Assembly: GCA_013314775.1 (NCBI GenBank)
Contig: JABUFB010000001.1
Location: 62,001-126,000, forward strand
DNA: 64,000 bases
Source of the DNA: Armatimonadota bacterium
Lineage (GTDB): Bacteria > Armatimonadota > Zipacnadia > Zipacnadales > JABUFB01
Direction of reading: 5' to 3'
Numbering within the stretch: the stretch's first letter is position 1; each line of letters opens with the position of its first letter. Below are positions 17,382 to 24,883 of this stretch, piece after piece. The notes below the pieces were generated by a model. It worked only from the letters and a program-made list of their open reading frames with translations. It was not told the DNA's origin and ran no database searches. Made by a program: the position numbers and the translations under genes.

Positions 17382-17725
17382 GGAACCGCATTCAGACGAG
17401 TACCACGGGGGCCTGAGCCGGCGAAGGCGAGACGCTGGTTCAGTCCCTGCCCTCCGGATTCCCGCTGTCTTGACGTTTTCGCGCCAAGACCACTGATCTA
17501 CGCCTTGAACCCCGGGGGCCCCCTGGCTATAATCGCCAAGTCGTTTGAGCCCGTTCGATCCGGGCAACGCCCACACGGGCGCAACTGATGCCTTCGGCAG
17601 CATGTACAGGCCCGGCATTCGGCGACCGAGGAGATCATGGCCTCGGGCGTTTCGATGCTGGGTGCTTCGCATCTGCCGGTGCATCGTTGTGCACGTTTGC
17701 GGGCGAAAACAGGGAGCACATTCTC
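17382..17725 (+). other. fhs promoter and 5' leader region
   Basis: No gene was found. A good promoter lies at 17505-17533, leaving a leader of about 185 bases before the fhs ATG. The leader contains several short inverted repeats, for example GCCC-ACAC-GGGC near 17570-17580 and TGCC-TTC-GGCA near 17588-17598. No known riboswitch motif could be matched. Confidence 0.5.
17505..17533 (+). promoter_or_regulatory. sigma-70-type promoter of fhs
   Basis: TTGAAC (17505-17510), a 17-base spacer and a perfect TATAAT (17528-17533) are in the correct orientation upstream of fhs. Confidence 0.75.
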
Positions 17726-19423
17726 ATGCTGAGCGACTTGGAGATCGCGCAGGCGGCGGAGCTGCGTCCGATCCTGGACGTGGCGGCGGACATTGGAATC
17801 ACAGAAGACGAGCTTGACCTGTACGGCCGCTACAAGGCCAAAGTCGACCTGTCTGTTCTGGACAGGTTGGCAGCGGAACCCGACGGGAAGCTGGTGCTGG
17901 TTACCGCGATTACCCCCACTCCCCTCGGCGAAGGCAAGACGGTGACCACCCTGGGCCTCGGACAGGCCCTGCGCTACATCGGAAAACGAGCCGTGACCAC
18001 CACCCGGGAACCCAGCATGGGCCCGGTTTTTGGCATCAAGGGAGGGGCGGCCGGGGGAGGCTACGCCCAGGTCGTCCCCATGGAAGACCTGAACCTCCAC
18101 TTCACCGGTGACATCCACGCGGTTGGCGCAGCGAACAATCTCCTCGCAGCCATGATCGACGCCAGCATCTGGCACGGCAATCCCCTGAACATCGACCCTT
18201 ACACCATCTCGTGGAGACGCGGGGTGGACATGAATGACAACTTCCTGCGGAACATCGTAGGCGGTCTGGGCTCCAAGGGCGACGGCAGGCCCCGCGAAAC
18301 CGGATTCGATATTACGGTAGCCTCCGAGGTCATGGCGATCCTTTCGCTATCCACCGGTCTGCGCGACCTGCGGGAACGCTTCGGCCGGATCCAGGTAGCG
18401 CTGAATACCGAAGGCAAGGCGGTCACGGCTGAGGATCTGGGTGCGGCCGGCGCGATGACGGTCCTCATGCGTGAGGCTATCAAGCCCAATCTGATCCAGG
18501 CCCTCGACGGCGGCCCGGCTTTCGTGCATGCCGGACCGTTCGCCAATATCGCCATCGGCTGCAATTCCATACTCGCGGACAAGATCGCGCTGAAGTGCGC
18601 CGATTACGTGGTGACTGAAGCCGGTTTCGGCGCTGACTGCGGCGCTGAAAAGTTCTTGAACATCAAGTGTCGCACGGGCAAGATGCAGCCGTCCTGCGTA
18701 GTGATCGTCGCCACCTGTAAGGCCCTGAAGATGCACGGAGGGGCTTTCGAGATGAAGCCTGGCCGCAAGCCTCCGCAGGAGGAGCTTGAGAAGGAGAACA
18801 TCCCGGCTCTCGTCAAAGGCGCCGAAAACCTCATCAAGCACATCGAGAACATGCACCAGTTCGGGCTACCGGTGGTCGTGGCTATAAACACCTTCAGCTA
18901 CGACACCGACGCGGAACTGGGCGAGATCGAACGCATCGCTGTCGAGGCCGGCGCGATGGCCGCTGTGCGCAGTTACGTCCATGCACGGGGCGGCGAAGGC
19001 GGCGCGGAGCTGGCTGAAGCAGTGGTGGCCGCTTGCGAACAACCCGGCGAGTTCAAGTTCCTGTATGAGCTCGATGAACCCATCAAGTCAAAAATCGAGA
19101 AGATCGCGACGCGGATCTATGGCGCAGACGGCGTCGAGTATTCCGCCGAAGCCGAGCGAAAGATCGCGACATTCACCGAGCAGGGCTACGACAAGCTGCC
19201 GATCTGCATGGCCAAGACCCATCTGTCGCTGAGCCACGATCCGAATCTCAAAGGACGGCCCACCGGCTTCACCGTCCCGGTCCGCGACATCCGCCCGTCC
19301 GTCGGCGCCGGGTTCCTGTATCCGCTGTGCGGCGAAATGCGCACCATGCCGGGACTGCCCTCGCGCCCGGCGGCCGTTGACGTGGACATCGATGAGAACG
19401 GCAACACAGTGGGCCTGTTCTGA
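17726..19423 (+). CDS. fhs: formate-tetrahydrofolate ligase
   Basis: Fhs uses ATP to join formate to tetrahydrofolate, giving 10-formyl-THF for purine synthesis and other one-carbon needs. The 565-residue protein is full length. The P-loop is TPTPLGEGKT (63-72), and EPSMGPVFGIKGGAAGGGYAQ, GDIHAVGAANNLL and VVTEAGFGADCGAEKF are strong family signatures. The chosen ATG has GGGAG upstream; the longer reading to 17588 includes leader sequence. folD follows after 65 bases, so the two probably work as a pair. Confidence 0.97.
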   Translation: MLSDLEIAQAAELRPILDVAADIGITEDELDLYGRYKAKVDLSVLDRLAAEPDGKLVLVTAITPTPLGEGKTVTTLGLGQALRYIGKRAVTTTREPSMGPVFGIKGGAAGGGYAQVVPMEDLNLHFTGDIHAVGAANNLLAAMIDASIWHGNPLNIDPYTISWRRGVDMNDNFLRNIVGGLGSKGDGRPRETGFDITVASEVMAILSLSTGLRDLRERFGRIQVALNTEGKAVTAEDLGAAGAMTVLMREAIKPNLIQALDGGPAFVHAGPFANIAIGCNSILADKIALKCADYVVTEAGFGADCGAEKFLNIKCRTGKMQPSCVVIVATCKALKMHGGAFEMKPGRKPPQEELEKENIPALVKGAENLIKHIENMHQFGLPVVVAINTFSYDTDAELGEIERIAVEAGAMAAVRSYVHARGGEGGAELAEAVVAACEQPGEFKFLYELDEPIKSKIEKIATRIYGADGVEYSAEAERKIATFTEQGYDKLPICMAKTHLSLSHDPNLKGRPTGFTVPVRDIRPSVGAGFLYPLCGEMRTMPGLPSRPAAVDVDIDENGNTVGLF

Positions 19424-19488: not shown

Positions 19489-20370
19489 ATGAGCGCGACA
19501 CTGCTCGAAGGCGCACCCATTGCCGACAAGATCAAGGAAGACGTGAAGGCTGCAATCGCCTCGATGAGCGCGCCGCCGAAGCTCTGCGCGGTGCTTGCCA
19601 CGGACAACAAGGGCGCCGCGTTCTACGCCGCTGCCCAACAGAAGGCGTGCGAGGAAGTGGGGATCGGTTACGAACTCGTGGAACTTGGCGCCGAGGCCGA
19701 CCAGTCGGCCATCGAGACGAAGATCGCTGAGCTCAATGCTGACAGCGCGGTGACCGGGATTATCTTGCTCATGCCTGTTGCCGAAGGCGTGGACGCCCGG
19801 GCTTGCCAGGCTGCCATTGACCCGAAGAAAGATGTGGACGGCGTGCACCCGGCCAATTTGGGCCGGGTCGTTCAGGGCGGAACTACCCTGGCGCCCTGCA
19901 CCGCTCAGGCGGCCTTCGCACTGGCGCAGGCGTCTGGCGTTCCGCTGTTCTCCAACCCGTCTGAGGCGGCAGGTAAAGGCGTCGAGGTCTGCGTGGTCGG
20001 TCATAGCGAGATCGTGGGCAAGCCCACCGCACTTCTGCTGCTGGACCGCTTCTGCACCGTGACCGTCTGCCACATCGGCACCCAGGACCTGAAGGCCCAC
20101 ACCACGAAAGCGGACCTGCTGGTGGTGGCGGTGGGCAAGGCGGGGCTTATCACCGGCGAACACATCAAACCGGGCGCGGTGGTCATCGATGTCGGTATCA
20201 ACCGCATCAAGGGGGAGGACGGAAAGATGAAAACCGTCGGTGACGTGGTCTTCGAAGAAGCGGTGGAAATCGCGTCCCAGATCACCCCGGTGCCCGGCGG
20301 TGTGGGCACGGTCACGACCGCGATGCTGCTGAAGAACGTGGTGGACGCCGCTCGCCTGCAGGGAATGTAG
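19489..20370 (+). CDS. folD: FolD-like methylenetetrahydrofolate dehydrogenase, cyclohydrolase residues missing
   Basis: The 293-residue protein is clearly FolD by overall sequence: KACEEVGI (52-59), KDVDGVHP (114-121), GHSEIVGKPTALLLL, VAVGKAGLI and ITPVPGGVGTVTTAML. FolD normally oxidises 5,10-methylene-THF and hydrolyses 5,10-methenyl-THF. Here the active-site Y-x-x-x-K motif reads Y46-A-A-A-Q50, so the key lysine is replaced by Gln. The Gln of the usual VQLP motif is Leu94 (LLMP). Asp117 is kept. From what is known of the family, loss of the lysine abolishes cyclohydrolase while dehydrogenase can remain. Another cyclohydrolase (for example FchA) may exist elsewhere. The ATG follows GGGAG; it sits directly downstream of fhs. 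Confidence 0.9.
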   Translation: MSATLLEGAPIADKIKEDVKAAIASMSAPPKLCAVLATDNKGAAFYAAAQQKACEEVGIGYELVELGAEADQSAIETKIAELNADSAVTGIILLMPVAEGVDARACQAAIDPKKDVDGVHPANLGRVVQGGTTLAPCTAQAAFALAQASGVPLFSNPSEAAGKGVEVCVVGHSEIVGKPTALLLLDRFCTVTVCHIGTQDLKAHTTKADLLVVAVGKAGLITGEHIKPGAVVIDVGINRIKGEDGKMKTVGDVVFEEAVEIASQITPVPGGVGTVTTAMLLKNVVDAARLQGM

Positions 20371-20455: not shown

Positions 20456-21142
20456 TCAGCCCAAATCCCCCGCTTGCCATGCTTCCCAGGCGCCGGCTCT
20501 CTGCAAAGCGCGCCGCAAGCGGTTGCACGACTCGCACTGCCAGCAGTGCTCTGCGCCACCGTGGTAGCAGCTCCAGACGAGACCGATGGGCGCGCCGATT
20601 TCCCGCGCCAATGTCACGATCTGCGCCTTGTTCAGGCCCACTGTCGGACTGACCACCTGAGGGTGCGCCCGGGTGGAGAGCGCGAAGAACCGCCCGGCGG
20701 CGTCCATGAACTCCGCCGAGTTGTCAGGGAATGTCGCGGCCTCCTCGACGTTGAACCCCACCACGATCGCCTGGCAGTCCATGGCGTCCGCGTATGCTGC
20801 GGCCACATTGAGGAACACGCCGTTGCGGTTGGGTACCCACACTGCGGCGGCTGTCTCGGTTGCCTGCGCCAAGTCATCGAGCCGATGCGGTGCGAGGACG
20901 GGGACGTCCGCGGCTTCGTCTGTCAGCGCGCTCCTGCCCAGTGCCCCCAGCCAGGGCAGTGCTGGCACTTCGTGCGCACACCCCAGCCGTCCGGCAACGG
21001 CGCTCGCGGCCTGGATCTCCCGTTTCCGCGCCCGCTGGCCGTAATCGAAGGTGAGCGCCAGGACCACTTCCCACTCGCTCCGCGCGGCCCAGGCAGCCAC
21101 CACGGAATCCAGCCCTCCAGATAGCAGCGCGATGGCTCTCAT
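20456..21142 (-). CDS. queC: 7-cyano-7-deazaguanine synthase
   Basis: QueC uses ATP and ammonia to convert 7-carboxy-7-deazaguanine to preQ0, on the way to queuosine and other deazaguanines. The 228-residue protein has the PP-loop SGGLDS (8-13), DYGQRA and the zinc-binding C-x8-C-x2-C-x2-C near residues 192-206 (SCYHGG, HCWQCESC). The ATG is one base after the queD stop, so translation is coupled. A longer reading to 21223 lies inside queD. queE and queF are not in this window. Confidence 0.95.
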   Translation of the reverse strand: MRAIALLSGGLDSVVAAWAARSEWEVVLALTFDYGQRARKREIQAASAVAGRLGCAHEVPALPWLGALGRSALTDEAADVPVLAPHRLDDLAQATETAAAVWVPNRNGVFLNVAAAYADAMDCQAIVVGFNVEEAATFPDNSAEFMDAAGRFFALSTRAHPQVVSPTVGLNKAQIVTLAREIGAPIGLVWSCYHGGAEHCWQCESCNRLRRALQRAGAWEAWQAGDLG

Positions 21143-21143
21143 G

Positions 21144-21515
21144 TCACTCTTCCCTGTAGATCGCCGACTGCTCGGGGGTCTCCCACACGCGCACGTGTTT
21201 GATCGTTGCCGGTCCACCCTCAAGTCGGGACTTCATCTGCATGTAAATGTGCCGGGCGATGTTCTCCGACGTGGCGTTCCTGTGGGTGAAAGCCTCAAGC
21301 TCATTGAGCATCCGGTGGTCCATCTCGCCGAGGACGGCATCGCAGAGGGACTTCAGGTCGCCGAAGTCCATGACGAAACCCAGGGGGGACAGCTCAGGCG
21401 CTGTCACCGCAACCTCCACCCGGTAGTTGTGCCCGTGGACCCGCGCGCAGGCTCCGTCATACTCGCGCAGACAGTGCGCCGCCGAAAAATGACGCTCCAC
21501 AATCAGTTCGAACAT
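21144..21515 (-). CDS. queD: 6-carboxy-5,6,7,8-tetrahydropterin synthase (QueD/PTPS family)
   Basis: QueD converts dihydroneopterin triphosphate to 6-carboxytetrahydropterin in the queuosine pathway. The 123-residue protein is typical in size. The zinc histidines are H14 (SAAHCL) and H27 and H29 (VHGHNY), and the catalytic Cys is C23 (ACARV). FVMDFGDLK and NATSENIARHI are also typical. It is the first gene of the queD-queC pair. A possible -10 (TATAAC) lies about 30 bases before the ATG, with a poor -35. Confidence 0.94.
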   Translation of the reverse strand: MFELIVERHFSAAHCLREYDGACARVHGHNYRVEVAVTAPELSPLGFVMDFGDLKSLCDAVLGEMDHRMLNELEAFTHRNATSENIARHIYMQMKSRLEGGPATIKHVRVWETPEQSAIYREE

Positions 21516-23839: not shown

Positions 23840-24883
23840 ATGGGACCGCGGAATGACTTCGCCCGAGTGCGCCAGTCCCTCATGCTCCAGGGAAAGCCCG
23901 ACCGGGTTCCCCTGTGGGAACTGCACGTGGACACCGCCGTCAAGGAAGCCTTTCTCGGCAGGCCGATTACATCCGAGCACGATGAGGCGGCCTTCTGGAT
24001 CGAAGCCGGCTACGACTATGTGCCGCTGGCGGCGGGCATTCTCCAGGTCGGCGGGGTGCTCTCGGGGGAAGCCGCCACCGTCAAGACCGACCGCTACAGC
24101 CTCTACAGCGAGGCAGACAGCGAGATCACCTGGGCGGCCGAGGGTCAGGGGGTCATCGGGTCCTTCGAGGACATGGAGCGCTTCCCCTGGCCCGCGCAGG
24201 CTGATCTCTCGCTGGAGCACGTGGAGCGCATGGTCCGCGTCCTGCCCGACAGCATGGGCGTGATCGTGGTCGTGGGCAAGATCTTCACCCCCGTCTGGAT
24301 GCTCATGGGCTTCGAGGGTTTCGGCGAAGCCTGCGCCTTTAACCCCGATCTTGTGGCCGCCATGTTCCAGCGCGTCGGCCAACTGCAGTTCGACTGCTGC
24401 CTTCGGGCCATGAAGATCCCCGGCGTCGTGGGGCTGTGGATGAGCGACGACATCGCCTACGGGCAGGGAATGATGGTCAACCCGCGCATCCTGCGGGAGC
24501 ACATGTTCCCGTGGTACCGACGTCTGGGCGAAATCCTGCGCGAGGCGGACATGCCGTTCATCTACCACTCCGACGGCAACCTGTGGCCGGTCATGGAGGA
24601 CATCATCAGCTGTCACTTCAACGCCCTGCACCCCATCGAGCCCAAGGCCATGGACAGCCGGGAACTCAAGGCGAAGGTGGGTGACCGCCTGTGTCTGCTG
24701 GGCAATATCGAGCTGGATCGCCTGAGCCGCGGCACGCCCGATGAGATCCGGCGCATGACCCGGCGCAACATGGAGGACCTGGGGCACAATGGGGGCTACT
24801 GCGTGGGTTCGTCGAACTCGGTGACCAATTATGTGCCGCTGGAAAACTACCTCGCGATGGTGGAGGAGGGCCTGAAAGGGTAG
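23840..24883 (+). CDS. uroporphyrinogen decarboxylase-like protein
   Basis: The 347-residue protein has the URO-D/MtaA-CmuA fold by sequence. The N-terminal region GKPDRVPLWELHVD is in the position of the family's substrate motif. The segments MSDDIAYGQGMMVNPRILRE, HSDGNLWPVMEDII and GNIELDRLSRGTPDEI are typical of the non-heme branch of the family. These relatives often act in methyl transfer with corrinoids or in catabolism, not in haem synthesis, and the true substrate is unknown. An AGGAGG site stands before the ATG. It is flanked by two prepilin genes, but nothing suggests a functional link. Confidence 0.8.
   Translation: MGPRNDFARVRQSLMLQGKPDRVPLWELHVDTAVKEAFLGRPITSEHDEAAFWIEAGYDYVPLAAGILQVGGVLSGEAATVKTDRYSLYSEADSEITWAAEGQGVIGSFEDMERFPWPAQADLSLEHVERMVRVLPDSMGVIVVVGKIFTPVWMLMGFEGFGEACAFNPDLVAAMFQRVGQLQFDCCLRAMKIPGVVGLWMSDDIAYGQGMMVNPRILREHMFPWYRRLGEILREADMPFIYHSDGNLWPVMEDIISCHFNALHPIEPKAMDSRELKAKVGDRLCLLGNIELDRLSRGTPDEIRRMTRRNMEDLGHNGGYCVGSSNSVTNYVPLENYLAMVEEGLKG

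Follow-up and report, generated by a model that had tools for sequence, protein, structure and literature searches.

Clostridium perfringens is reported (Aluri et al. 2016) to have a dehydrogenase-only FolD that is complemented by FchA, with Fhs also present. PMC7219735 cites Aluri et al. 2016 for FchA. Yeast Mtd1 is, by the title of Barlowe and Appling 1990, a monofunctional NAD-dependent dehydrogenase, and a monofunctional enzyme is mentioned for Peptostreptococcus productus (PMC6443876). In the bifunctional enzyme, a lysine serves as the general acid-base of the cyclohydrolase reaction and a glutamine positions it (PMC3338484). For E. coli FolD, the K54N substitution makes cyclohydrolase activity undetectable while about 19% of dehydrogenase activity is kept, deletion of K54-R55 abolishes cyclohydrolase activity too, and Q98H leaves about 1% of cyclohydrolase and 8% of dehydrogenase activity (PMC5688156). 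An initial annotation of the DNA studied here had stated that the lysine is needed for cyclohydrolase activity, with the glutamine helping, and that dehydrogenase activity can outlast loss of the lysine; the E. coli mutants agree with the first statement, and the activity kept by K54N agrees with the second.

We analyzed a 64,000-nucleotide stretch of the genome of an Armatimonadota bacterium (the window), whose folD had been annotated as lacking both residues (Table 1). Aligned by phmmer to E. coli FolD (PDB 1b0a), the window protein matched without gaps across both motifs, with Y50-V-A-S-K54-R-K56 corresponding to Y46-A-A-A-Q50-Q-K52 and V-Q98-L-P corresponding to L-L94-M-P, confirming that two hallmarks of bifunctional FolDs are missing: the lysine of YxxxK is replaced by Gln50 and the glutamine of VQLP by Leu94. 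The annotation had left room for K52 to occupy the catalytic lysine position, but K52 aligns with E. coli K56 and does not fill that position.

Table 1. Features of the folD region, with positions in the window.
Feature	Position	Strand	Basis or remark
Promoter-like site before fhs	17505..17533	+	10/12 consensus bases; consensus match only
fhs, formate--tetrahydrofolate ligase	17726..19423	+	65 bases upstream of folD, same strand
folD, predicted dehydrogenase-only methylenetetrahydrofolate dehydrogenase	19489..20370	+	293 aa plus stop; translation, domains, alignment and predicted fold
Y46 codon (E. coli Y50), retained	19624..19626	+	Alignment
Codon 50, CAA, Gln at the cyclohydrolase Lys site (E. 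coli K54, human K56)	19636..19638	+	Alignment, survey
K52 codon, at the E. coli K56 site rather than the catalytic Lys site	19642..19644	+	Alignment
Codon 94, CTC, Leu at the E. coli Q98 site (human Q100)	19768..19770	+	Alignment, survey
D117 codon (E. coli D121), retained	19837..19839	+	Alignment
H172 codon, cofactor site	20002..20004	+	Phylum survey; Arg in 128/134 K54-type relatives
I196 codon, cofactor site	20074..20076	+	Phylum survey; Ser/Thr in 128/134 K54-type relatives

In other respects the protein resembles its family. Both Pfam domains are present (THF_DHG_CYH, 100.9 bits against a cut-off of 32.8; THF_DHG_CYH_C, 184.2 against 27), and the Tyr and Asp that hold folate (Y46 and D117) are retained, as is the Rossmann motif. 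All 25 NCBIfam bifunctional FolD models listed, out of 30 with matches, scored below their cut-offs (best, 253.3 bits against 355), although these models are narrow and falling below their cut-offs says little by itself. The predicted structure has an intact FolD fold (pLDDT 95.1), and every one of the 50 Foldseek matches listed was a FolD or MTHFD, with a TM-score (query) of up to 0.92 for the Thermus thermophilus enzyme. A search of the genome returned one FolD match in all, ruling out a second, normal FolD. Fhs proteins are able, as a family, to make formyl-THF from formate, so that formyl-THF could come from Fhs alone and the window FolD could be degenerate and non-functional. We consider this extremely improbable given the intact predicted fold, the retained Y46, D117 and Rossmann motif, the status of the gene as the sole folD of its genome, and the constraint on it (in comparisons with three relatives of 76-83% identity, dN is low at 0.14-0.19 and dS is 0.87-1.35). 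Downstream, queC overlaps queD, and both run toward folD from the minus strand (window positions 20456-21515).

A mainly dehydrogenase FolD had been proposed to need a separate cyclohydrolase, with a search for fchA named as a check. The search showed that the FTCD_C/FchA family (PF04961) has a single, stand-alone member in the window genome (G000:C2:39633-40175; 208 aa counted from the likely start). No FTCD_N domain was found in the genome by domain search. Because it stands alone in a genome without FTCD_N, this protein is most simply a predicted methenyl-THF cyclohydrolase, and on the same two observations we rejected a cyclodeaminase of the histidine pathway. The annotation had also placed folD in an fhs-folD pair. 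That setting holds for fhs, which adjoins folD, but fchA lies outside the pair, on another contig. In this genome and two others (G009 and G190) fhs and folD are together with fchA elsewhere, and we infer that fchA moved away in such genomes rather than having always been absent there.

Two neighborhoods have further genes that may touch one-carbon metabolism. About 2.4 kb from fchA of the window genome is a gene for a PF00809 pterin-binding protein resembling methyl-THF methyltransferases (L142:6406-7206, minus strand). Between the two are genes for a PanE/ApbA reductase and for a fusion of an OMP decarboxylase/HUMPS-family domain to an RraA-like domain (L142:8216-9514, minus strand), so a one-carbon neighborhood is possible there. 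The fusion may act on hexulose phosphate and formaldehyde. In the window, positions 23840-24883 (plus strand) encode a URO-D family protein with matches below cut-off to MtaA/CmuA methylcobamide methyltransferases, and a role in methyl-group metabolism is possible.

A survey of related genomes had also been suggested. We sampled 201 genomes of the phylum Armatimonadota, of which 189 had a FolD match and 54 an FTCD_C match. We read 179 of the 189 FolDs, taking the best match alone where a genome had two; one of them (L269) is blank at position 54 (E. coli numbering), leaving 178 readable. The ten FolDs left out were those of G019, G040, G072, G076, G078, G149, G158, G160, G164 and G191; among these genomes FchA is found only in G160, where folD is in two pieces beside fchA. 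Position 54 is Lys in 134 of the 178 and another residue in 44 (40 Gln, 3 Leu and 1 Ile). The same Gln as in the window FolD thus recurs across the phylum, which rules out an isolated sequencing error or chance. A close relative in an Armatimonadetes metagenome assembly (L032) has a FolD 83% identical to that of the window.

Loss of Lys54 in the phylum goes with FchA. FchA is present in the genomes of 42 of the 44 FolDs without Lys54, compared with 8 of the 134 with it; the two K54-less genomes in which FchA was not found are both incomplete (G053, 72%; G017, 85%). FTCD_N occurs in 7 of the 8 genomes that have both a K54 FolD and FchA, and in none of the 44 K54-less genomes. In 30 of the 44, fchA immediately precedes folD on the same strand, at a spacing of 81-252 bases by match ends, an arrangement seen in none of those 8; adjacency is thus frequent among FchA-dependent FolDs but does not define them. 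Several relatives show the order fhs-fchA-folD. Fhs occurs in 40 of the 44 genomes lacking K54 and in 83 of the 134 that have it. Among 50 named genomes, taken from 80 that were themselves picked by similarity to the query FolD, FchA is present in four, including that of the near relative L032, and the FolDs of the 49 genomes other than that of L032 all have K54 and Q98.

To these we added a class-level survey of 151 genomes, covering the class of G221 (Eubacteriales record L055), in which 101 genomes had an FTCD_C match and 147 a FolD match. We read 110 of the 147 FolDs, comprising the 30 best matches and 80 from genomes with strong or no FchA hits, again taking the best match alone where there were two; only a minority of the genomes with weak FchA hits is represented. 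We scored a FolD as altered if K54 or Q98 was replaced. All 30 FolDs encoded beside fchA are altered (17 with Lys54 and Glu98, 12 with Ala54 and 1 with Met), whereas all 38 FolDs of genomes without FchA keep both residues. Where FchA is present but away from folD, 35 of 42 FolDs on this clostridial side keep both residues, ruling out the presence of FchA anywhere in the genome as a predictor of K54 or Q98 loss. Pooling the two surveys, altered FolDs make up 60/60 of those adjacent to fchA, 19/62 of those with FchA elsewhere and 2/166 of those without FchA. All 288 FolDs have Tyr50 and 285 of them have Asp121, so the folate site is retained. The folD matches of two genomes (L302 in G268 and L303 in G279) each contain one in-frame TGA, reflecting either recoding or an error in the sequence.

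The presence of FchA, the lack of FTCD_N, the linkage seen in two surveys, the fhs-fchA-folD order of relatives and the E. coli mutants all support the proposal of a mainly dehydrogenase FolD that would need a separate cyclohydrolase. We conclude, with a probability of roughly 0.87, that the window FolD is a dehydrogenase-only enzyme that would work with FchA and Fhs, its cyclohydrolase activity presumably lost through Gln50 and Leu94. The enzyme would interconvert 5,10-methylene-THF and 5,10-methenyl-THF, by oxidation or the reverse. Hydrolysis of methenyl-THF would be lost because the hydrolytic lysine and its positioning glutamine are replaced, and conversion of methenyl-THF to 10-formyl-THF would be handed to the stand-alone FchA, whose gene is on another contig. 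Fhs, encoded just upstream, would tie 10-formyl-THF to formate and ATP.

Another residue could in principle replace the lysine, leaving FolD bifunctional and FchA redundant. K52 and the remainder of the site are close by, and modelling of MTHFD2 left the base for hydrolysis unidentified, with a catalytic role of the lysine possible but unsettled (PMC9173628). We nevertheless regard this as improbable, as K54N abolishes cyclohydrolase activity in E. coli despite the presence of K56 (PMC5688156), the vacated positions hold many different residues, and the change tracks linkage to fchA.

A related question is what drove the changes. Carolacton, a myxobacterial product that binds via K54, and other natural inhibitors of FolD could have selected for them, with FchA making the loss affordable; K54N, the K54-R55 deletion and Q98H all appeared in E. 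coli resistant to carolacton, to which the dehydrogenase activity left in K54N is insensitive (PMC5688156). However, the changes span whole clades and go with the fchA operon, relaxed constraint would suffice without an inhibitor, and nothing on this idea came up in the literature that we searched. An inhibitor-driven origin is therefore decidedly improbable.

How often the residues were lost bears on the weight of the association with fchA. With positions 54 and 98 omitted, the tree of phylum FolDs places the K54-less proteins as two changes. On a thinned tree of both surveys, 55 of 56 altered FolDs group together, without strong support (SH-aLRT 91), and there are at least 8 changes at position 54 and at least 16 at position 98. 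A single clade was not rejected by the AU test either for all altered FolDs (p 0.85) or for those of the phylum (p 0.87). Tests on independent pairs yielded only one or two pairs, too few to use. The simplest reading of these sequences is that one or a few lineages became tied to fchA and that both sites then drifted, although long branches could group altered FolDs together. Because the altered FolDs of the two surveys fall together, the association of K54 loss with fchA rests on few independent origins, and we lean on no p value; we set aside the one from a Fisher test of the phylum counts since the genomes are related. More tentatively, and at odds short of even, the FolDs linked to FchA in two or more phyla may form one old subfamily in which operon linkage to fchA freed Lys54 and Gln98 from constraint, each then lost several times with varied replacements. 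Members of such a subfamily would be dehydrogenase-only, mostly mis-annotated as bifunctional, and insensitive to inhibitors that bind Lys54, like carolacton.

The cofactor site differs in the phylum as well. Thirty of the 44 altered phylum FolDs, including that of the window, lack Arg167 and Ser/Thr191 (E. coli numbering) and have Ile191, compared with Arg at position 167 in 128 of 134 unaltered ones. Ser197 of human MTHFD1 contacts the 2'-phosphate of NADP+ (PMC9173628). This pattern suggests that NAD+ may be preferred over NADP+ in the branch of the window FolD only, since altered FolDs on the clostridial side retain the Arg (36 of 37). Changes to the same two residues also cut dehydrogenase activity in E. 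coli, so the window FolD would need compensating changes, for which E. coli positions 65, 99, 111 and 266 are candidates. From these comparisons we infer that cyclohydrolase activity is lost, that FchA takes over the missing step and that NAD+ is preferred.

FolD tends to be assumed bifunctional, and checking two residues together with fchA adjacency flags cases where that is likely wrong. For other Armatimonadota, fchA has been argued to be dispensable because FolD is bifunctional (PMC10290634); this argument needs a check of residues 54 and 98 before being extended to lineages like that of the window. The signature also predicts bacteria that should resist inhibitors binding the catalytic lysine, and the natural single and double variants let the two activities of FolD be studied apart. 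In the literature we searched, a scope outside which most subscription journals fall, we found no residue-based survey and no paper tying loss of K54 or Q98 to fchA.

Compared with bifunctional FolDs (E. coli 1b0a and human MTHFD1), the window FolD has the same fold, the Tyr, the Asp and most motifs in common, but the catalytic lysine and its glutamine partner are replaced, and the Arg and Ser that relatives typically have in the cofactor loop are missing. Yeast Mtd1 is a dehydrogenase without cyclohydrolase activity, the role proposed for the window FolD, but is eukaryotic and distant; PDB entry 1edz, which we take to be yeast Mtd1, matches part of the window FolD with an E value of 6e-11. 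The system reported for C. perfringens, with FolD, FchA and Fhs, would have the same division of labor, judged for the window genome by its genes, and belongs to a different phylum. The Acetobacterium woodii cluster, fhs1-fchA-folD (PMC10472528), has the gene order of many relatives of the window genome, whereas fchA of the window genome sits elsewhere. We read the window FolD as a clear instance, shared across its lineage, of a division of labor that is already known and not as a new type of system; our additions are the residue signature, how far it reaches in the phylum and how it goes with operon linkage.
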